Positions 1,124 to 22,816 of a stretch of DNA of 22,816 bases are shown here, piece by piece. The notes under the pieces were generated by a model. That model worked only from the letters and a program-made list of their open reading frames with translations. It made no database searches and was not told the origin of the DNA. Each line of letters opens with the position of its first letter. The first letter of the stretch is position 1. The stretch comes from Candidatus Neomicrothrix sp. UBA881. GTDB taxonomy: Bacteria; Actinomycetota; Acidimicrobiia; Acidimicrobiales; MedAcidi-G1. A program made the translations under genes and the position numbers. The stretch covers positions 12,861 through 35,676 of the forward strand of contig DBFL01000040.1 of NCBI GenBank assembly GCA_002294285.1. Reading direction: 5' to 3'.

Positions 1124-2683
1124 CTAAGGCCAATCAATTTTCGCTATCTCATCCCTCAGCTGATATTTAAGTATCTTTAAAGTCGGGTTCCTAGGTAAAG
1201 AACCCTGATAGTTAATTAGTTGCTCTGGAATTTTTTGTTTCATCAGTCCTTCACCTTCACAAATTTCCACCATTTCTTGAAAATCTAATGGTTCTCTACC
1301 TTCAGCTAGTTCCACAACTGCACAGACTCTCTCTCCTCTTTCTTTATCCGGAATACCTACAACTGCTACAGCTTCAACTTTTTGATGGGTGTACAAAATG
1401 TCTTCTATTTCTTTAGCTGAAATATTTTCTCCTTTTCTAATGATGATGTCTTTGACGCGACCGGTGAGTGAAACATGCCCATCTTCCCTCATTACTCCCA
1501 AATCTCCTGTAAGGAATCTTCCAAGAGAGTCAAAGGCTTCCTTGTTTAAGTCTGGGTCTTTGTAGCCTTTGAAGAGTTGAGGCCCTGCTACTACTACTTG
1601 TCCTTCTTCTCCAGGGTCGCAGGTTGAGCCATCAGATCTAACAATCGTTACTTCAGCCGCGAAGACTGGTTTTCCTTCAGTATGGGCTAGTTGATCTGGG
1701 CTGTCGGAGGGTGAACCCTGACAGATCATGGGACTTTCAGTCATCCCATACCCATGAGCAACTGGGATTCCCATCTCTTCTAAGACTTCATGATATATCT
1801 CAGGTGGTTTTGGGGCGCCTCCACCGGAGAGCAATCTAAGGCTTGGTATCAAGGGTTCTTCGGGTTGCTGACGTTGGGCACCTAAGAACATGGAATAAAA
1901 AGCTGTACTGCCTCCTGCCATAGTCACACCATGACGTTTGTAAGTTTCGATAGTTGACTGAAGGTCAAATTTTTCTATCAATACTGCCGGAAAACCATTA
2001 GCAAGCATGCAGACGAGATAGTCCGGACCTCCTATATGAGCGTAAGGAAAAGCTATGGAACCTATATCTTTTTCTCCCATGTTTAAAGCTTTTGCTAGAC
2101 CTACTCCACCTGCCATCAAAGTGGAATCTGTGTGCATCGCTCCTTTGGGGTCTGAGGTGGTACCTGATGTGTAATAGATCCATTTGATGGTTTCGTTTGT
2201 AGCCACATCAATTTCTTCAGGTAGTTCTGTACCTTCAGCTTCTGGGAGACTGTCGTATATCTCAATTATTTCCGGAGGGTTGTCCATGTCAACTGTTGAG
2301 TTTTTGACCATTTCCTGATAGTTGAAACCGTTCCATTCACCGGGGACTAAAACTATCTCTGCGTTGGTTTGACGGATGCAAAAACCTACTTCTTTTTCTC
2401 GGTAGATATGGATAATCGGGTTTTGAACTGCACCCAGCCGTGACAGGGCTAAAGAGGTAACTATTGTTTCTATGCGTGTTGGTAGAACCCATGTGACCGG
2501 GGTTCCTTCTCTAACCCCGAGCTCCTCTAACCCTGCGGCTGTTTTTTCGGCTTTTTCTTTAACTTCTGAGAAAGTCAGTGAACGGTCAGAATCGTCGATA
2601 AGCATTTTTTTGTCCGCACTGAGTTCAACCCGTCTTTCAAGCAACTCCCAGAAAGTTCGAGCATCGTAAATTGGTTCGTTCAT
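1124..2683 (-). CDS. AMP-dependent acyl-CoA synthetase/ligase
   Basis: About 519 residues of the ANL superfamily (acyl-CoA synthetase class). These enzymes activate a carboxylic acid with ATP to an acyl-adenylate and then form the acyl-CoA thioester. The P-loop Y-T-S-G-T-T-S-D-P-K-G is at about 172-182. The G-Y-G-M-T-E-S adenine/acyl motif is near 312-318. The T-G-D-L-G segment and the hinge G-R-V-K-D-I-I near 409-415 follow, then K-G-E-N-I-S. The C-terminal catalytic lysine lies in P-T-L-K-I-L-K (K504 counted from the GTG). It starts either at GTG 2686 or at the adjacent ATG 2683; neither has a clear Shine-Dalgarno, and I chose ATG. It is convergent with the crotonase at 332 and divergent from tRNA-Pro. 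The chain length or type of the acid substrate cannot be read from sequence. Confidence 0.92.
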   Translation of the reverse strand: MNEPIYDARTFWELLERRVELSADKKMLIDDSDRSLTFSEVKEKAEKTAAGLEELGVREGTPVTWVLPTRIETIVTSLALSRLGAVQNPIIHIYREKEVGFCIRQTNAEIVLVPGEWNGFNYQEMVKNSTVDMDNPPEIIEIYDSLPEAEGTELPEEIDVATNETIKWIYYTSGTTSDPKGAMHTDSTLMAGGVGLAKALNMGEKDIGSIAFPYAHIGGPDYLVCMLANGFPAVLIEKFDLQSTIETYKRHGVTMAGGSTAFYSMFLGAQRQQPEEPLIPSLRLLSGGGAPKPPEIYHEVLEEMGIPVAHGYGMTESPMICQGSPSDSPDQLAHTEGKPVFAAEVTIVRSDGSTCDPGEEGQVVVAGPQLFKGYKDPDLNKEAFDSLGRFLTGDLGVMREDGHVSLTGRVKDIIIRKGENISAKEIEDILYTHQKVEAVAVVGIPDKERGERVCAVVELAEGREPLDFQEMVEICEGEGLMKQKIPEQLINYQGSLPRNPTLKILKYQLRDEIAKIDWP

Positions 2684-7685: not shown

Positions 7686-9956
7686 TTGAAGGAAAATGAT
7701 CCGAAAGAAACTTGGCACAAAACTGCTTGTGTTCTCTGCTCTAGCAACTGCGGACTCGAAGTTAAATTAGACGGAAAAGAAATAACCAGAGTTCGAGGCA
7801 ATAAGTCACATGTGGGTTCAAAAGGCTACACATGTGAGAAAGCTCTACGGGTAAACTTTTACCAAAATTTTCACGGCCGTATAACTACTCCCTTAAAAAG
7901 ACTTCCAGATGGCACTCATATAGAAGTCGATTGGGATACTGCGATTTCAGAAGTAGCAGAAGGTTTCAAAAAAGTTAATGAAACATATGGAGATGGCAAA
8001 ATTCTCTATTATGGCGGTGGTGGACAAGGCAATCACCTTGGAGTTGGATACTCGCTTGCGACAAGAAACGCTCTAAAGATTACTCGACGTTCCAATGCTC
8101 TAGCTCAAGAAAAAACTGGTGAAGCATGGGTGGAAGGCAGAATGTTCGGAGCCCACACCCATGGCAATTTCCATGAAACAGAAGTGGCTGTTTTCTTAGG
8201 AAAGAACCCTTGGCATTCTCACGGATTCGATGAAGCACGAAGAGTCCTTAAGGAAATCTCTGCAGACCCAAATCGTTCTATGGTTGTCATAGACCCACGT
8301 CGAACTGAAACAGCTGATTTGGCTGACTTCTGGCTACCAGTTAAACCAGGTTCAGATGCATTTCTTCTCGCTGCAATAATTTCTGTAATATTCGAGGAAA
8401 ACCTTTCAGCGAAATCTTGGCTTGCGGAAAACACAGTTGGATTGAATGAGATTACCCAAGCTTTCTCTAATCTACCTGTTGGTAATTTTGCCTCTAGGTG
8501 TGGCATACCTGAGGAACAGATACGCACTGTAGCCAGACGGCTCGCCAAAGCTAAAAGTGTGGCATTTTATGAAGATCTAGGAATTGAAATGGGTCCCCAT
8601 TCAACGCTTGTCTCGTATCTTCAAAGAGTCGTATGGGTCCTATTAGGAAACTACGGAAATTACGGAGGAATGTCCGTTCACTCATATGCTGCGCCTCTCT
8701 TCAACTACAAAGCTTCAGGCTCTGAACCTACTGACCCTGTTACTGGAAGTTTAATAATCTCCGACTTCTTCGCTTGCAATGAAATAGCTGATGGAATATT
8801 GAGTGACCATCCAGAAAGAAACAGAGCCCTGCTGATAGAAAGCACAAACCCCGTTCACTCGCTGGCGGAATCTGAGAAGTTTAGGCAGGCTATGCGAGCT
8901 GTTGACTTTTCTGTCGTTGTTGATGTAGCTCTTACAGAGACTGCACGGGAAGCGAGCTATTTTCTTCCAGCGGCTACACAGTATGAAAAAGTTGAAACCA
9001 CGTTTTTCAGCGCTGGTTTTCCAGATAACTGGATATGCGTCAGACCTCCTATTTTGAAACCTCCAGAGGGCGTTTTAACCGAACCAGAGATACATACTCG
9101 AATAATTAGAGAACTGGGCCTTACGAAAGACGTGGACTTTTTGCCTTTGCGAGAACTAGCTAAGAAAGGACTCGATGAGTTCAGCGAAGGTTTTATGGAG
9201 TTTTCGATTAACAATCCTGAGGTTGCCGCTTTGGGGGCAGTAGCTCTATATGAAACATTAGGTGCTGTTCTTCCCGATGGAATGGAGGGTGCAGCCGTGC
9301 TTTGGTTTACTGCTCAACAAACAGCTCTAAAATATCCTTCGCAAGTAAAAGCTGCAGGTCATAAAGGTGAAGGGCCATCTCTTGGAAATTCACTGTTTGA
9401 AGCGATGATTTCTAATCCAGACGGTGTAATTTTTACTCGCCATGAACAGGAGCAGTCATGGGATCTATTAAATACGGTTGACTCGAAAATAAATCTTGCT
9501 ATCCCTGAAATGTTGAAAGAAGTCAAAGGTCTCGCGGACTCTCCTACTCAATACACAAGTGATGAATTTCCTTTTGTGCTTGCAGCAGGAGAAAGAAGAA
9601 GTTTCACGGCTAATACTATTATGCGTAATCCTGAGTGGAGAAAACGAGATCAAGAAGGCACTCTGCGGCTTAGCTTAGAGGATGCAAAAAAATTGGGTAT
9701 CGACAATGGTGCTCGAGTTAGAATTACAACACCAGGAGGGACAGCTGTTGCAGTTGCTGAAATTAACGAAACGATGATGCAAGGCCACGTTTCTCTGCCT
9801 AACGGTCATGGTTTGAGTTATTCTCCAGCTGGTGGAGAGCCTGAGATATTTGGAGTACCCACGAATGAACTAACTTCTACAGACTGGTGCGATCCGATTG
9901 CAAAAACCCCTTGGCACAAGCATGTGCCGGCTCAACTCGAAGTGGTTAATCCTTAA
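7686..9956 (+). CDS. Molybdopterin-dependent oxidoreductase (formate dehydrogenase/BisC-like catalytic subunit)
   Basis: 756 residues of the DMSO reductase superfamily. An N-terminal [4Fe-4S] site uses C15-x2-C18-x3-C22 and C50, with the K52-containing C-E-K that often relays electrons. Molybdopterin-binding segments follow, including V-V-I-D-P-R-R-T-E-T-A and the C-terminal beta-barrel with R-N-P-E-W and P-N-G-H-G. The place where Cys, Sec or Ser normally ligates the metal reads S-N-A-L-A-Q-E-K-T-G-E (about 136-146), with no Cys or Sec. TTG at 7686 is the chosen start because GAGGGGG (7673-7679) sits 6 nt upstream and no Met follows for over 100 residues. No electron-transfer subunit, chaperone or Tat signal is seen, so it is likely cytoplasmic with a soluble partner elsewhere. 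Substrate unknown. Confidence 0.88.
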   Translation: MKENDPKETWHKTACVLCSSNCGLEVKLDGKEITRVRGNKSHVGSKGYTCEKALRVNFYQNFHGRITTPLKRLPDGTHIEVDWDTAISEVAEGFKKVNETYGDGKILYYGGGGQGNHLGVGYSLATRNALKITRRSNALAQEKTGEAWVEGRMFGAHTHGNFHETEVAVFLGKNPWHSHGFDEARRVLKEISADPNRSMVVIDPRRTETADLADFWLPVKPGSDAFLLAAIISVIFEENLSAKSWLAENTVGLNEITQAFSNLPVGNFASRCGIPEEQIRTVARRLAKAKSVAFYEDLGIEMGPHSTLVSYLQRVVWVLLGNYGNYGGMSVHSYAAPLFNYKASGSEPTDPVTGSLIISDFFACNEIADGILSDHPERNRALLIESTNPVHSLAESEKFRQAMRAVDFSVVVDVALTETAREASYFLPAATQYEKVETTFFSAGFPDNWICVRPPILKPPEGVLTEPEIHTRIIRELGLTKDVDFLPLRELAKKGLDEFSEGFMEFSINNPEVAALGAVALYETLGAVLPDGMEGAAVLWFTAQQTALKYPSQVKAAGHKGEGPSLGNSLFEAMISNPDGVIFTRHEQEQSWDLLNTVDSKINLAIPEMLKEVKGLADSPTQYTSDEFPFVLAAGERRSFTANTIMRNPEWRKRDQEGTLRLSLEDAKKLGIDNGARVRITTPGGTAVAVAEINETMMQGHVSLPNGHGLSYSPAGGEPEIFGVPTNELTSTDWCDPIAKTPWHKHVPAQLEVVNP

Positions 9957-17659: not shown

Positions 17660-18880
17660 TCAATCAGAACCCCTTGGCTCCCGAGGTAAACCCAATACCC
17701 TCTCGCCAATAATATTTCTTTGGATTTGGTTGGAGCCAGCATAAATAGTGTGGGCCCGACTGTACAGGAAAGTTCGTTGCAGAGCGTCCAATAGGTATCC
17801 ATGTCCGAGGGGATTTTCTAAAGGTGGCGTCGGATCCATGCCTATCATCCCAGAAGCACCTCTGATGTTTAGAGCTAGTTCTCCTAGGCGTCGATGCCAG
17901 GAAGCCCAGTACAGTTTTCCTATCGACATCTCTGGTCCGGGCACTCCGCCTCTGTCCAGGGAAGAGAGCATGCGCATTTGGTTGTAACGCATTATCTGTA
18001 ATTCGGAAAAAATTTTCATCAGCTTCTGGCGGATAACGGGCTCTTCTATGACCCCTAACTGTTTGGCTAGCTGGAGTAATTCATCCAGCTCTTGACTAAA
18101 TGAAGTTTGTTGTCCGAGAGTTGAAGCACCTCGCTCGAAAGCGAGTGTACCCATAGCTACTGACCAGCCTCCTCCTGGTTCTCCTACTGCTAAATTTCTG
18201 TCCGTTTTAGCATTGTTGAAAAAAACTTCATTGAATTCAGAACCACCTGTAATTTGAACTATTGGACGTATCTCTATTTCTTCCTGTTTCATCGGAACAA
18301 GCAGATACGACAACCCTTGATGACGTGTATCTTCTGCACTTGTTCTACACAAAACAAATATCCAATCAGAGTATTGCGCAAGAGAAGTCCAAATTTTTTG
18401 ACCATTTACAACCCAATGATCCCCTTCGCTTGAAGCTCGTGTTGTGATATTGGCCAAATCTGAACCTGCGTCTGGTTCTGAGTAGCCCTGACACCAGAAT
18501 TCACTTCCGTTGAGTATCTCTGGAATAAACCTTTCTTGCTGTTCATTTGTTCCGTAGGCAACAAGGGTTGGGGCCAGAAGCGTAACACCTATATTTGGTA
18601 TTCGACCAGGTGCTCTGGACTCAACATAAGTTTGGTGAAAAATAACCTGTTCAAATAGTGAACAATTTCGTCCTCCTAGTTCTTCTGGAAAATCAAGCCC
18701 TAGCCAGCCTCCTGTAGCTAGTTCTTTTTCCCATTCCAAAAGAATCTCTACAGGAATATCTTCTTGTCCAGTTCCTCCACGGTTTCGTAAATCTGAGAAC
18801 TCGCCGACTAGGTGCTCCTCAAGCCAAGTCCTTACCTCTTCAGCAAAACTTTCTTCTTGACTGTTTCTAGAGAACTCCAC
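17660..18880 (-). CDS. Acyl-CoA dehydrogenase
   Basis: 406-residue flavoprotein of the ACAD family, oxidising an acyl-CoA to the 2-enoyl-CoA and passing electrons to ETF. The FAD/substrate signature Q-G-Y-S-E-P-D-A-G-S-D-L is at 131-142, followed by G-Q-K-I-W-T-S. The usual base in I-Y-E-G-T-x-Q (E376 of human MCAD) is alanine here (I-Y-A-G-S-N-Q, A381). A glutamate in A-F-E-R-G (E249) lies where isovaleryl- and long-chain ACADs carry their base. Bulky or branched substrates are therefore plausible. The C terminus G-E-R-V-L-G-L-P-R-E-P-R is typical of actinobacterial FadE proteins. GTG start at 18880 without a clear Shine-Dalgarno, supported by the standard ACAD N terminus. It lies between the phosphatase and the thiolase on the same strand. 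Confidence 0.92.
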   Translation of the reverse strand: MEFSRNSQEESFAEEVRTWLEEHLVGEFSDLRNRGGTGQEDIPVEILLEWEKELATGGWLGLDFPEELGGRNCSLFEQVIFHQTYVESRAPGRIPNIGVTLLAPTLVAYGTNEQQERFIPEILNGSEFWCQGYSEPDAGSDLANITTRASSEGDHWVVNGQKIWTSLAQYSDWIFVLCRTSAEDTRHQGLSYLLVPMKQEEIEIRPIVQITGGSEFNEVFFNNAKTDRNLAVGEPGGGWSVAMGTLAFERGASTLGQQTSFSQELDELLQLAKQLGVIEEPVIRQKLMKIFSELQIMRYNQMRMLSSLDRGGVPGPEMSIGKLYWASWHRRLGELALNIRGASGMIGMDPTPPLENPLGHGYLLDALQRTFLYSRAHTIYAGSNQIQRNIIGERVLGLPREPRGSD

Positions 18881-18906: not shown

Positions 18907-19464
18907 CTAAGGGTTTTTATTTACTTCAGAAGTCAAAAGTTTGGATAGAAATCCACATATTTCATTAAGCCTCTTGGCCACTTTCTCATACTCTTCAAAA
19001 GATTCACCTAATGGGTCATGTATCTCGTCTGCTGATCTACCCGATGTCATATATCCACCTCTTGCTGAATGAAGTTCTTCAACCCACATTTTTAAAAGAG
19101 GCAATTTTTCTAATTTGGAAACCAAGGAACCTAGCCTCACAATTTCCCCAGCCAAAAAAGTTCGGCTACGTGCTTGTTGTTGAATTTTTGATACCGACAA
19201 TTCATGAGGTCTAGTCATCACGATTATCAATTCTGCTTTAGTAACCATGTCGTTATTCAACAATCGAGCTTTGTGCCCTGATAGGTCAATATTGAAAGTT
19301 TGCATCACTTTTTTAGCTTCTTCAGAGGCACTTTCATCACTCTTCGCACTTATCCCAGCGGAAAAAACTTCTATTTCTGAAGATGCCTGTACAAGTTGAT
19401 CCTTTAAAAAGGCTTCTGCCATAGGTGAACGACATGTATTTCCTGTGCATACGAAAAGAATCAC
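18907..19464 (-). CDS. Low-molecular-weight protein tyrosine phosphatase family protein
   Basis: 185 residues. The P-loop C6-T-G-N-T-C-R12-S is at the extreme N terminus after a beta strand (I-L-F-V), as in LMW phosphatases and related arsenate reductases. The general acid is probably D150 in H-D-P-L-G-E-S. These cytosolic enzymes hydrolyse phosphotyrosine or phosphoarginine; actinobacterial arsenate reductases share the fold, so the substrate is open. It is about 30 residues longer than the common 150-residue form, mainly in a loop before D150. GTG start at 19464. It is divergent from the CoA-transferase at 19560 and upstream of the acyl-CoA dehydrogenase by 26 nt. Confidence 0.87.
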   Translation of the reverse strand: MILFVCTGNTCRSPMAEAFLKDQLVQASSEIEVFSAGISAKSDESASEEAKKVMQTFNIDLSGHKARLLNNDMVTKAELIIVMTRPHELSVSKIQQQARSRTFLAGEIVRLGSLVSKLEKLPLLKMWVEELHSARGGYMTSGRSADEIHDPLGESFEEYEKVAKRLNEICGFLSKLLTSEVNKNP

Positions 19465-19559
19465 ACATAGACCGTAGCTAAATTTCTCCGCATCTCCGAA
19501 ATCGCAATATCAGCAAAAACCACCTAGCGTCTTTGTTAGAGATTCGAAAGGAAGAGAAT

Positions 19560-20780
19560 ATGGCTGGTCCTATGGATGGAGTTAAAGTCGTAGAGCTTGG
19601 CATTTGGGTAGCTGGACCTGCGACTGCAGGGATACTAGCGGAGTGGGGTGCTGATGTAACAAAGATTGAGCCGACAAAAGGTGATCCCTCCAGAATTTTT
19701 CAATTTTTACTAGGTGGCGATATGCCCACTAATCCGGTTTTTGAGATGGATAATCGTTCGAAACGCGGAATGGCTATTGACCTTTCTCATCCTGAAGGTT
19801 TGCAAATACTCTTTGATTTATTAGATGACGCTGATGTTTTTATTACTAATCTTCGACCAGGAGGACTCAAACGACTGGGGATAGATTTTGAATCAATAGA
19901 AGAGCGTTTTCCGAAACTTGTCTACTGCCACATAACAGCTTACGGACGAGAAGGAAAAAGCGCAGACCTTCCATCTTTTGATGTGGGTGCCTTTTGGGCT
20001 CGTTCTGGAATAGCCAGTCTACTGACTACCGAGGATTCCGATCCTCCTTTTCAGCGCGGAGGTATGGGCGACCATTCGGTGGCTATGTCCGCTGCAGCAG
20101 CTATTTCGGCTGCTCTTTTTGAAAGGGAAAAATCTTCTAAAGGACAATTAGTGGAAGCATCTCTTATAAGACAAGGTGCTTACACGATCAGCTTTGACTT
20201 AAATGCCTTATTGATGTGGGGTCGTACAATCGCCCTCGGTTCTCGTTCGGGTATGGGTAATCCGGCCATGAACAACTACAAAGCTTCTTGTGGTAGACGA
20301 TTTTGGCTTGTGGGCATAGAACCGTTTAGACATTGGCCACCATTAGCAAGAGCGGTTGGTCATCCTGAATGGATCGAGGATGAAAGATTCTCAGACCCCG
20401 GGTCACGTGCGAAAAATGCTGAAGAGTTGATAGGAGAGCTGGATAAAATTTTTGCAACACGTACTCTGGATGAGTGGGCTGAGATTTTTAACTCTGAACC
20501 AGATCTTTTTTGGGCACCTGTAAATTCACCGGATGACCTATTAGCGGATCAAACTTTCAGCGGATCAGGAGCTTTGCTTGATGTTCCTGATGGTTCAACA
20601 GGCACACTAATGATCTCGACTCCGGTAGATTTTCATGGCACTCCTGCAGAGCCAAGATCTTTAGCCCCCAAATTGGGTGAACATACTGCAGAAATTCTCA
20701 AAGAGTTGGGTCTGAGTGAATCTGAAATTGATTCAATGCATTCTTCTGGAATTGTCATAGATGGCTCTAAAACCGAATAA
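19560..20780 (+). CDS. Family III (CaiB/BaiF) CoA-transferase
   Basis: 406 residues with the canonical order of this family. The N-terminal Rossmann segment V-V-E-L-G-I-W-V-A-G-P is at 10-20, T-K-I-E-P at 34-38, R-P-G-G-L-K-R-L-G at 99-107, and the candidate catalytic aspartate D141 in S-F-D-V-G. The enzyme transfers CoA between acyl groups through an aspartyl-CoA anhydride. A TTG at 19533 would add nine residues, but AAAGGAAGAG sits right before the ATG at 19560, so the ATG is preferred. It converges with the alpha/beta hydrolase, 6 nt apart. Substrate unknown; related to formyl-CoA and carnitine CoA-transferases only at family level. Confidence 0.92.
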   Translation: MAGPMDGVKVVELGIWVAGPATAGILAEWGADVTKIEPTKGDPSRIFQFLLGGDMPTNPVFEMDNRSKRGMAIDLSHPEGLQILFDLLDDADVFITNLRPGGLKRLGIDFESIEERFPKLVYCHITAYGREGKSADLPSFDVGAFWARSGIASLLTTEDSDPPFQRGGMGDHSVAMSAAAAISAALFEREKSSKGQLVEASLIRQGAYTISFDLNALLMWGRTIALGSRSGMGNPAMNNYKASCGRRFWLVGIEPFRHWPPLARAVGHPEWIEDERFSDPGSRAKNAEELIGELDKIFATRTLDEWAEIFNSEPDLFWAPVNSPDDLLADQTFSGSGALLDVPDGSTGTLMISTPVDFHGTPAEPRSLAPKLGEHTAEILKELGLSESEIDSMHSSGIVIDGSKTE

Positions 20781-20786
20781 TGTTCC

Positions 20787-21716
20787 TCAAATATTTTCGG
20801 CTAGTCGAACACATGCCGCTTCCATCGCTTCTCTAGCTGCTGGAACGAACTCGAAGAAAACTAAGAAGGCATGAGGGAGTGACGATATGCACTCGTAATG
20901 AGTTTCCACACCTGCTTCATTCAGAGCCTTTGCGTACGCTTCTCCTTCATCCCGAAGAGGATCTAGTTCAGCGGTAATAACCTGTGCGGGTGGTAAACCT
21001 GATAGATCCTCTGAACGTAGCGGACTCGCATAGGGTTCTTCGATGAAATTCTCGGAACCTACATAATGTCGGTAAAACCAGCGCATCATATCCATTGGGA
21101 GGATTGGGTCTGAGCTTTCCTTATGCGAAGGCCATCCATAGGTGTCAATGTCAAAACAACCGTAAAAAAGCGTCTGATATTTGATATTTGGGCCATTTCT
21201 GTCTCTAGCCATTTGACAAACTACGGTTGCCAAGTTTGCTCCGGCACTATCGCCAACTACTGCGAGTCGTTCAGGATCTATCCCGTAATCATCTGCGTTT
21301 TCTACTATTTGACTAAGTGCGGAGTAACAGTCTTCTGGTGGGACTGGGAAGGGATGTTCAGGTGCTTTTCTGTAATCAACCGCAATAATTACCATGCCGG
21401 AACTGTTAGCCAAGCCTCGACACTGACCGTCATGACTGTTTATGTTGCCAACCACCCAACCACCTCCATGGAAAAAAATTGCTGCGGGTGACTTACTGGG
21501 TGACCCTTCTGGTCGATAAATCCTGATGGACATATCTCCCCCGTCAGAATCTAATAAATTCAAGTCCTCTATCGTCTCAACGTTTTCTCCGCCACCTTCT
21601 GAATAGTCACCATTTATCACCCTGAACTCTTCTGGGGTCAGTACATCGAAATTCATTTCGGGTGCATCTTCAGCTGCGCCTTCAAGTATTGAGCTGAGTG
21701 TTTCATCAAGTGGCAT
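20787..21716 (-). CDS. Alpha/beta hydrolase, hormone-sensitive lipase (HSL) family
   Basis: 309 residues, normal for bacterial HSL-type esterases. The oxyanion motif H-G-G-G-W is at 83-87 and the nucleophile S157 in G-D-S-A-G. The acid D252 in A-E-L-D-P-L-R-D-E-G and H282 in L-P-H-A-F complete the triad. No signal peptide is seen, so it is likely cytoplasmic, hydrolysing short or medium acyl esters. A GGGAGA ribosome site precedes the ATG at 21716, and the gene starts 2 nt after the stop of the GrdB-like selenoprotein. The two are almost certainly one transcript and may act on related compounds. Confidence 0.92.
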   Translation of the reverse strand: MPLDETLSSILEGAAEDAPEMNFDVLTPEEFRVINGDYSEGGGENVETIEDLNLLDSDGGDMSIRIYRPEGSPSKSPAAIFFHGGGWVVGNINSHDGQCRGLANSSGMVIIAVDYRKAPEHPFPVPPEDCYSALSQIVENADDYGIDPERLAVVGDSAGANLATVVCQMARDRNGPNIKYQTLFYGCFDIDTYGWPSHKESSDPILPMDMMRWFYRHYVGSENFIEEPYASPLRSEDLSGLPPAQVITAELDPLRDEGEAYAKALNEAGVETHYECISSLPHAFLVFFEFVPAAREAMEAACVRLAENI

Positions 21717-21718
21717 TT

Positions 21719-22636
21719 TTATTTCTCCCTTCCGGTATTGTTTTCCGCTGCGACTCTATCTTCTTCATACTGATACTGGGGTTCGCTTAATCGAGGTTGT
21801 CTACTATCACCTTCTGCAGAATTAACCCCATTGTTTAATCCACTTGTTGCCTTGTCTTTCCAAGATTCACCTTCAGACCAAGAAATGTCTAAATCAACTA
21901 TTGACCCAGGTATTTCTATCTCTTCCACGGCCGTAAAAACCTTACGCAGTAAATCCTTTTGAAATTCGGGTTCATGAGGGCGACCAGCCGTATAACCCAA
22001 CGGCATGTCAACAAATGCCGCTCTTGGAGGGTTTACCGATTCAGTAATGCTTCTCGCAGCTGTCAAACATATTGTTGGAAATCCTGCTTCTTCCAAAGTT
22101 CTCGCTACCAGACCCACGGTCTGGTGACACACAGGTCAAACAGGAACCAGTAAAACCAAATCGACTGGCGGACCAGGCATGTTGGAAACAGAATCAAGGA
22201 TCGATGGAGCTAACTCCTCTTCAGCGCGTCTAGCTGAATAGATTCCTCCCATGCAAGCAATGGAATTTGTTGCCAAACTCCCAATAGTTTTTTCCTCAAC
22301 TAACTCACGGAGTCTGTCGGTAGGGAAAACTATGTTTGGATCTTCTCTAGCAGGCTCTAAGTCATAAGCGAAATGAGTTACTCGAACATCACTAGCAGGT
22401 TCTCCCGAGGGAATCAGACGAACTCCGGTGTCATCTTCCCAGTGAAATGCAACCTGTCCTTTGGTGTAAGCACCTCCTGAAGCAACTAGGGCAACATTGG
22501 ATTCTGCAACCGGTTTCGTGATAGGGGCCCACGGTGGAGTTTCTTTTCTTTCAGCCCACCTGTAATCGTCGTAGCCGAGGCGAGCGTACTGCTCTCGAGT
22601 TCTTTGTATGTAGTCAACTGGACCATTTGCAGACAT
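21719..22636 (-). CDS. GrdB-family selenoprotein (glycine/sarcosine/betaine reductase selenoprotein B-like) with in-frame TGA
   Basis: A 305-residue protein if the TGA at 22136-22138 is read as selenocysteine at residue 167. Both sides stay in one frame: the upstream part ends L-V-L-L-V-P-V and the downstream part continues P-V-C-H-Q-T-V-G-L-V-A, giving a U-P-V-C (UxxC) redox motif. Upstream landmarks are A-L-V-A-S-G-G-A-Y, R-L-I-P-S-G, V-T-H-F-A-Y-D-L and M-G-G-I-Y-S-A-R-R; downstream V-N-P-P-R-A-A-F-V-D. These match short GrdB-like proteins known from non-clostridial bacteria, recalled without a search. True GrdB is about 430 residues and needs GrdA/GrdC/GrdD, none of which is here. AGGAG lies 7 nt before the ATG. 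A SECIS-like hairpin follows the TGA. The acidic, Gln/Asn-rich C-terminal 50 residues look flexible. A thiol/selenol reductase role is inferred; substrate unknown. Confidence 0.87.
22107..22138 (-). promoter_or_regulatory. UGA(Sec) codon and bacterial SECIS element
   Basis: On the coding strand the TGA (22138-22136) is followed by 10 nt. Then come stem arm ACCAGAC (22125-22119), loop CGTGG (22118-22114) and arm GTCTGGT (22113-22107), a perfect 7-bp stem. The loop begins 18 nt after the UGA and has G as its second base. This agrees with the bacterial SECIS rules as I know them: small apical loop, G among its first two bases, and 16-37 nt from UGA. It would recruit SelB-Sec-tRNA during translation. 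Confidence 0.85.
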
Positions 22637-22674
22637 TTAATTTCTCCTATTTATCTAACAATAGCCTTATTTAG

Positions 22675-22735: not shown

Positions 22736-22816
22736 ATGAACTTGCAAAATGCATACAGTGTTGAGGATCTCGCTTTAAAAGCAGGAATCAGTGTAGACAC
22801 AATCCGCTACTATCAA
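22736..22816 (+). CDS. MerR-family transcriptional regulator, N-terminal fragment (3' end outside window)
   Basis: 27 codons from ATG 22736 to the window edge. The residues Y-S-V-E-D-L-A-L-K-A-G-I-S-V-D-T-I-R-Y-Y are the first half of a MerR winged helix-turn-helix, with the diagnostic T-I-R-Y-Y. The effector-binding part is missing, so the inducer is unknown. It faces away from the selenoprotein operon across about 99 bp containing overlapping palindromes. It may therefore regulate itself and that operon; MerR proteins also commonly control acyl-CoA pathway genes in related bacteria. Confidence 0.88.
   Translation, partial: MNLQNAYSVEDLALKAGISVDTIRYYQ

Follow-up and report, generated by a model that had tools for sequence, protein, structure and literature searches.

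A PrdB-related selenoprotein gene of the Acidimicrobiia that appears to lack a PrdA-type partner

The reductase subunits most similar to the protein described here have well-defined partners: PrdB, of D-proline reductase, is partnered by the product of the pyruvoyl-bearing proprotein PrdA, and GrdB is partnered by GrdE and GrdA. Relatives of GrdB have been proposed to cleave C–N bonds, and farB to act on C–F bonds (PMC10838667); as far as the accessible text of that paper goes, FarB points to a wider substrate range for the superfamily, C–F bonds included. Marine sequences have carried the name PrdB for some time. The Sargasso Sea survey of 2005 counted 42 genes of "Proline reductase (PrdB)", with a UXXC motif, as the third most abundant selenoprotein family (PMC1088965). 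In the 2008 survey of the GOS data, PrdB (pfam07355, UxxC) is listed as one of the most abundant selenoprotein families, with 235 selenocysteine (Sec) and 110 Cys sequences (PMC2398784), and in a later marine survey proline reductase accounts for 6.4% of selenoprotein genes (PMC9402790). These figures, and the absence of any discussion of PrdA from the first two surveys, refer to the portions of the papers available to us. We likewise found no discussion of PrdB without PrdA in marine bacteria in the open-access literature searched, itself accessible in part.

The window, that is, the whole stretch of 22 816 nucleotides analysed here, contains a prdB-like frame of 305 codons at 21719..22636 with a single in-frame TGA at 22136..22138. 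These coordinates, first given in a first-pass annotation that did not state the strand, are correct; the gene lies on the minus strand, and reading the plus strand gives several stops. On the minus strand the TGA is codon 167 and is followed by Pro-Val-Cys, as that annotation had it, and we read it as selenocysteine at the first position of a U-P-V-C motif whose second active residue would be Cys170 (codon at 22127..22129, minus strand). A Shine-Dalgarno-like AGGAG (22644..22648, minus strand) stands 7 bases upstream of the ATG. The mechanical list of open reading frames divides the gene into two pieces, 22136-22636 (166 aa) and 21719-22132 (137 aa).

The codon aligned to residue 167 is TGA in all 101 loci that cover this column, namely the 80 best-candidate loci (80 of 80), the window itself and 20 further loci that partly repeat the same genes; 19 other loci (L001-L018 and an E. 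coli test stretch) gave no match and stand outside the count. Because the 80 loci are the best of 399 candidates, the count is biased towards close relatives, but such conservation of the codon across loci excludes a chance in-frame TGA. A wider sample is provided by 120 listed database proteins from the 330 homologues found. Ninety of the 120 end no more than two residues from the position preceding U. At column 167, Cys is present in 22, Thr in five and Trp in one (P0044), and two do not cover the column. The active site is therefore hidden in most of the listed database entries by a cut at the UGA, the truncation that had been foreseen for gene callers. The accompanying expectation that homologues would have U or C in this column holds for the 90 proteins that stop there and the 22 with Cys, and fails for the five with Thr and the one with Trp.

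For closer comparison, 51 rows were chosen by hand (32 Sec, 14 Cys and five Thr), and in all 51 of them Cys170 is invariant. On a tree of these rows, whose root is arbitrary, the labels U, C and T require three, three and one changes, respectively, the single change for T being weakly supported (65/18). The rows bear the labels Actinomycetota, Myxococcota, Pseudomonadota, Binatota, Chloroflexota, Tectimicrobiota, Spirochaetota and Thermodesulfobacteriota; as most of them are metagenome bins, single phylum labels may be wrong. Five T-P-V-C homologues (P0003, P0007, P0013, P0014 and P0022) have Thr at the first motif position and keep Cys170. Since Thr occurs in five of the 120 listed homologues, some branches do without a selenol or thiol at this position; residue 167 is replaceable there, and the Sec reading of the window gene is unaffected. 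The Thr forms either catalyze a different reaction or let Cys170 carry the chemistry. Together, the Sec, Cys and Thr forms with their conserved Cys170 make up a natural set of variants for probing the role of the selenol.

A bacterial SECIS-type hairpin is predicted immediately 3' of the UGA (22103..22129, minus strand) from fold predictions and a comparative count of pairing. It would pair 22129-22127 with 22105-22103 and 22125-22118 with 22114-22107 around a loop at 22117-22115. In an alignment of 81 sequences (74 distinct), in which the stem occupies columns 10-12/34-36 and 14-21/25-32, 93.6% of the stem cells are paired, compared with 23.2–37.6% after one side has been shifted by 1 to 3 columns, and 64 cells are changed on both sides of the stem, compared with a mean of 28.6 after shuffling. 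None of 500 shuffles matched the stem in percentage paired, in double-change cells or in covariation score. Two other measures did not exceed the shuffles: the number of stem pairs with a double change (3 versus 2.4; 245 of 500 shuffles as high) and the number of further pair types (8 versus 7.5; 265 of 500 as high). Double changes occur at columns 15/31, 18/28 and 19/27, and at 19/27 the alignment couples a Thr-to-Ser codon change to a silent change in a Gly codon; pair 10/36 is broken in 23 of the 74 distinct rows. Fold predictions agree on the position of the apical loop in 75 of the 81 sequences, with three bases in 66 and five in nine. As the single-sequence fold of 56 nt is unremarkable (z -0.86), the case for the hairpin rests on the comparative count.

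The first-pass annotation had also proposed looking for sel genes in the same genome, and they are all present. SelA (331.6 bits) and SelB (307.8 bits) are adjacent on contig C42, SelD is on contig C13 (G000:C13:10625-11548, locus L018), and a tRNA-Sec with anticodon tca is on contig C86 (66.1 bits against a gathering score of 47). SelD, too, has an in-frame TGA, in the motif UGC, and so counts as a selenoprotein; the frame upstream of it resembles, by eye, an aminotransferase-V-type cysteine desulfurase or selenocysteine lyase. Elsewhere, SelA was found in 44 of 45 other genomes that bear the prdB-like gene, and was not found in the remaining one. TGA also serves as an ordinary stop in six of 21 window genes hand-picked from the list of open reading frames. 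From the conservation of the TGA, the covarying hairpin, the Sec machinery and the use of TGA as an ordinary stop elsewhere, codon 167 is almost certainly decoded as selenocysteine, and the original claim of a selenoprotein is borne out. The chance that the TGA is instead a sequencing error, marks a pseudogene, or is read as Trp or some other residue in an alternative code is negligible, because the Trp of P0044, which would suit recoding, is set against a TGA at the same codon in every one of the best 80 loci and against the three other lines of evidence.

Judged by its sequence, the window protein is a member of the GrdB/PrdB superfamily, nearest to PrdB and passing neither equivalog test. 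The PrdB model (TIGR04483, NCBIfam) matches residues 34-250 with 138.2 bits and does not reach its equivalog cut-off of 300. The models for GrdF (36.7 bits), GrdH (35.3) and GrdB (28.9) all remain below cut-offs of 602–800 (602.2 for GrdB), and the general selenoprotein B model of NCBIfam (29.4 bits) remains below 65.45. Pfam GRDB (PF07355) is passed over part of the model, with 28.8 bits against a gathering score of 22. One Cys and one Thr homologue give the same picture, with 147.5 and 149.6 bits to the PrdB model. The earlier label "GrdB-like" should thus give way to PrdB-like, in view of 138.2 bits to the PrdB model versus 28.9 to 36.7 to the GrdB-type models. The same genome encodes a second PrdB-like selenoprotein (G000:C18:3240-3899; locus L121, frame 1207-2340, plus strand) with the motif UPLC, 36% identity to the window protein and 116.1 bits to the PrdB model. 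A second match of this kind, 31–43% identical, is present in 28 of 37 family-level genomes (own genome included), 27 of them with an in-frame TGA.

We searched for the partners on which the known reductases depend. PF09338 (the GrdE/GrdG family), GrdA (PF04723) and PrdA (TIGR04480) all gave no match in the genome of the window, which is weak evidence alone because this genome is only 79.88% complete. PF09338 is present in four of 61 relatives (own genome counted) and in five of 45 gene-bearing genomes of other groups, and GrdA in the same four relatives. One might suppose that the window protein nevertheless belongs, as a GrdB-type subunit, to a reductase of the glycine/sarcosine/betaine or fluoroacetate type, with GrdE/FarE and GrdA supplied from another locus: it passes the Pfam GRDB gathering score, its relatives have the proposed C–N and C–F activities noted above (PMC10838667, from the text accessible to us), and a few Acidimicrobiia do carry GrdA together with PF09338. 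This is highly improbable. The GrdB, GrdF, GrdH and family models all fall far short of their cut-offs, PF09338 was not found in 57 of the 61 relatives and 40 of the 45 other gene-bearing genomes, and across these 61 and 45 genomes the gene mainly occurs independently of GrdA and GrdE. Moreover, a distinct GRDB frame (357–449 bits) adjoins PF09338 at both places checked (L125 and L130), and it is therefore a separate reductase that is encoded there. In L090 and L092, whose records have one-chromosome titles, PF09338 lies hundreds of kilobases from the prdB-like gene, provided that contig C1 is that record.

Four of the 61 relatives (G020, G024, G045 and G057; loci L122-L129) carry a GrdA with an in-frame TGA together with PF09338, and perhaps possess a glycine- or sarcosine-type reductase.

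It is also very unlikely that the window gene encodes PrdB of a genuine D-proline reductase whose PrdA is encoded elsewhere in the genome. PrdB does provide the best family model, and the reviews describe a UxxC motif for PrdB too, as far as their available text shows, but the score lies well below the PrdB cut-off, and PrdA exceeded its own cut-off in none of the 80 gene-bearing genomes. Weak PrdA matches were seen in four of the 80 (five places, 19.7–31.2 bits), all of them overlapping PF09338 matches, and the four PF09338 proteins that were scanned, that of L125 among them, score best with a sarcosine-reductase GrdG model. Three genomes (L096, L108 and L113) have the gene and showed no PF09338 or PrdA match; since their records are titled as one chromosome, incompleteness is an unlikely explanation there. 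The earlier view that the Grd and Prd partners are missing and that the protein stands alone is upheld by these searches, and a PrdA- or GrdE-type partner is very probably lacking, though an unrelated protein could replace PrdA. We accordingly consider it likely that the gene encodes a Sec protein of a PrdB-related branch that works without PrdA/GrdE and GrdA, and is hence neither a D-proline reductase nor a glycine/sarcosine/betaine reductase.

An AlphaFold model of the protein (mean pLDDT 91, pTM 0.92) places U167 between a strand (160-165) and a helix (168-183), a position that would be usual for an activated thiol or selenol. Fold searches gave no convincing match to a solved fold; the matches were weak, and no thioredoxin chain was among those listed. 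In the 51 rows the invariant polar or charged residues include D69, R85, H88, Y133, S134 and C170; H171, Q172, R179, W253, W259 and R282 are invariant as well, and R136 and R205 nearly so. SelB presumably delivers Sec-tRNA to UGA167. A possible course of the reaction is as follows. Sec167, where the predicted helix 168-183 begins, would attack a small substrate at an activated carbon or heteroatom; this substrate is probably acidic and would be gripped by Arg and His residues (R85, H88 and R179, with the nearly invariant R136 and R205). After departure of the leaving group, Cys170 would resolve the intermediate bound to Se, giving a selenenyl sulfide that a thioredoxin-like donor would then reduce. 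This scheme as a whole is tentative and somewhat less likely than not; the nucleophile, the acidic nature of the substrate and the reductant are all conjectural, and naming any one substrate would be a guess with little chance of being right.

The alternative that survives best accepts a stand-alone Sec protein and differs only over the chemistry, carbon–heteroatom bond cleavage in our scheme: the protein might be a thioredoxin-dependent redox or repair oxidoreductase acting on disulfides, peroxides or S-conjugates. We regard this as possible but rather unlikely. In its favour, many marine redox selenoproteins share the UxxC motif, according to the accessible text of the surveys (PMC1088965, PMC2398784), and the genome has cytochrome oxidase genes. 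The lack of a thioredoxin chain among the listed fold matches counts weakly against it. Also against it stand the numerous polar residues that are invariant yet remote from the motif, which suggest a specific substrate pocket, and the Thr at 167 in some homologues.

The next gene downstream, an alpha/beta-hydrolase of the hormone-sensitive-lipase type (Abhydrolase_3; 20787..21716, minus strand), starts 2 bases past the prdB-like stop on the same strand. Upstream, the window end cuts a divergent MerR-type regulator shortly after its start (22736..22816, plus strand); this part is 93% identical to the MerR-type protein of locus L040, which scores 57.3 bits with MerR_1. Further genes, given as context, are a CoA-transferase of family III (19533..20780, plus strand), a low-molecular-weight protein tyrosine phosphatase (18907..19464, minus strand) and an acyl-CoA dehydrogenase (17660..18880, minus strand). 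The window also has a molybdopterin oxidoreductase of 756 aa (7686..9956, plus strand) without an in-frame TGA.

Seven named neighbours were sought by tblastn around 80 loci, contig ends being counted as missing. In the 35 close loci (L040-L074) the most frequent neighbours were MerR and MenF (34 loci each), followed by MenD (33), the phosphatase (29), the esterase (27), the acyl-CoA dehydrogenase (20) and the CoA-transferase (19). The remaining 45 loci (L075-L119), of which 41 are outside the Acidimicrobiia and four are titled as Acidimicrobiia or Acidimicrobiales relatives, yielded no match to MerR, MenF, MenD, phosphatase or esterase. The CoA-transferase in eight and the acyl-CoA dehydrogenase in seven of the 41 outside loci (24–40% identity, up to 9 kb away) carry no inference, because these families are large. 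Among the genes listed, neither the seven queries nor the cluster list revealed a neighbour common to all lineages. The acyl-CoA neighbourhood, to which the first-pass annotation had drawn attention, is thus a poor clue to function, as the neighbours change outside one group of Acidimicrobiia. Given that MenD, MenF, MerR and the phosphatase occur in 29 to 34 of the 35 close loci and in none of the 45 others, the acyl-CoA genes look like part of the local gene order of this lineage.

In 33-34 of the 35 close loci the prdB-like gene lies opposite the MerR-type regulator, which menF and menD follow (L040:4118-7897); this regulator may control the menaquinone genes, the selenoprotein gene, or both. 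The closest of the best 80 of 399 loci (89% identity) is from an Actinomycetota bacterium, and the next are from Candidatus Microthrix sp., Acidimicrobiales or Acidimicrobiaceae, one of them titled "marine actinobacterium"; the source organism is probably a marine member of an Acidimicrobiia-type group. As its genome has two genes of the COX1 family (518 and 159 bits), respiration with oxygen is likely.

The family itself is already known, having been counted as marine UxxC "PrdB" in 2005 and 2008 (PMC1088965, PMC2398784, both accessible to us in part), and the genomes that carry it bear the labels of at least seven phyla. We infer that the survey sequences and the window protein belong together, equating them by motif, Pfam family and habitat. 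What the present analysis adds is the missing PrdA partner, which makes the name proline reductase doubtful; an abundant marine family may have been misnamed and be a stand-alone selenol enzyme. We see roughly even chances that the marine "proline reductase" is such an enzyme, carrying out reductive cleavage or conjugation without a pyruvoyl subunit, a chemistry that would be new to the superfamily within the accessible literature searched. If the genes do go without PrdA, their presence in ocean data is no ground for inferring D-proline reduction, and a selenium-dependent reaction that is widespread among marine bacteria awaits assignment.

Set beside the described systems, the window protein resembles PrdB of the Clostridium D-proline reductase in the match over residues 34-250 and in the UxxC motif. 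It is longer, however (305 residues against 238 model positions), has a conserved C-terminal part past the match (W253, W259 and R282), scores below the PrdB cut-off, and belongs to a host with cytochrome oxidase genes and no PrdA match. With GrdB, GrdF and GrdH it shares residues 34-139, which align to GRDB positions 215-324, whereas the first 214 GRDB positions are unmatched, and the PF09338 partner and GrdA of those systems were not found in its genome. The fluoroacetate reductase FarB/FarE belongs to the same superfamily and is an example of another substrate having been proposed for a selenoprotein of the B type; in the accessible text it is an anaerobic system in which FarB is partnered by FarE and transfer to GrdA is predicted (PMC10838667). 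To the "PrdB" of the marine surveys, finally, the window protein is alike in the Sec of its UxxC motif, and that family is abundant in the ocean, has Cys homologues and was placed in pfam07355 in the GOS survey (PMC1088965, PMC2398784); according to the portion of the 2005 paper available, its function was taken over from clostridial PrdB.
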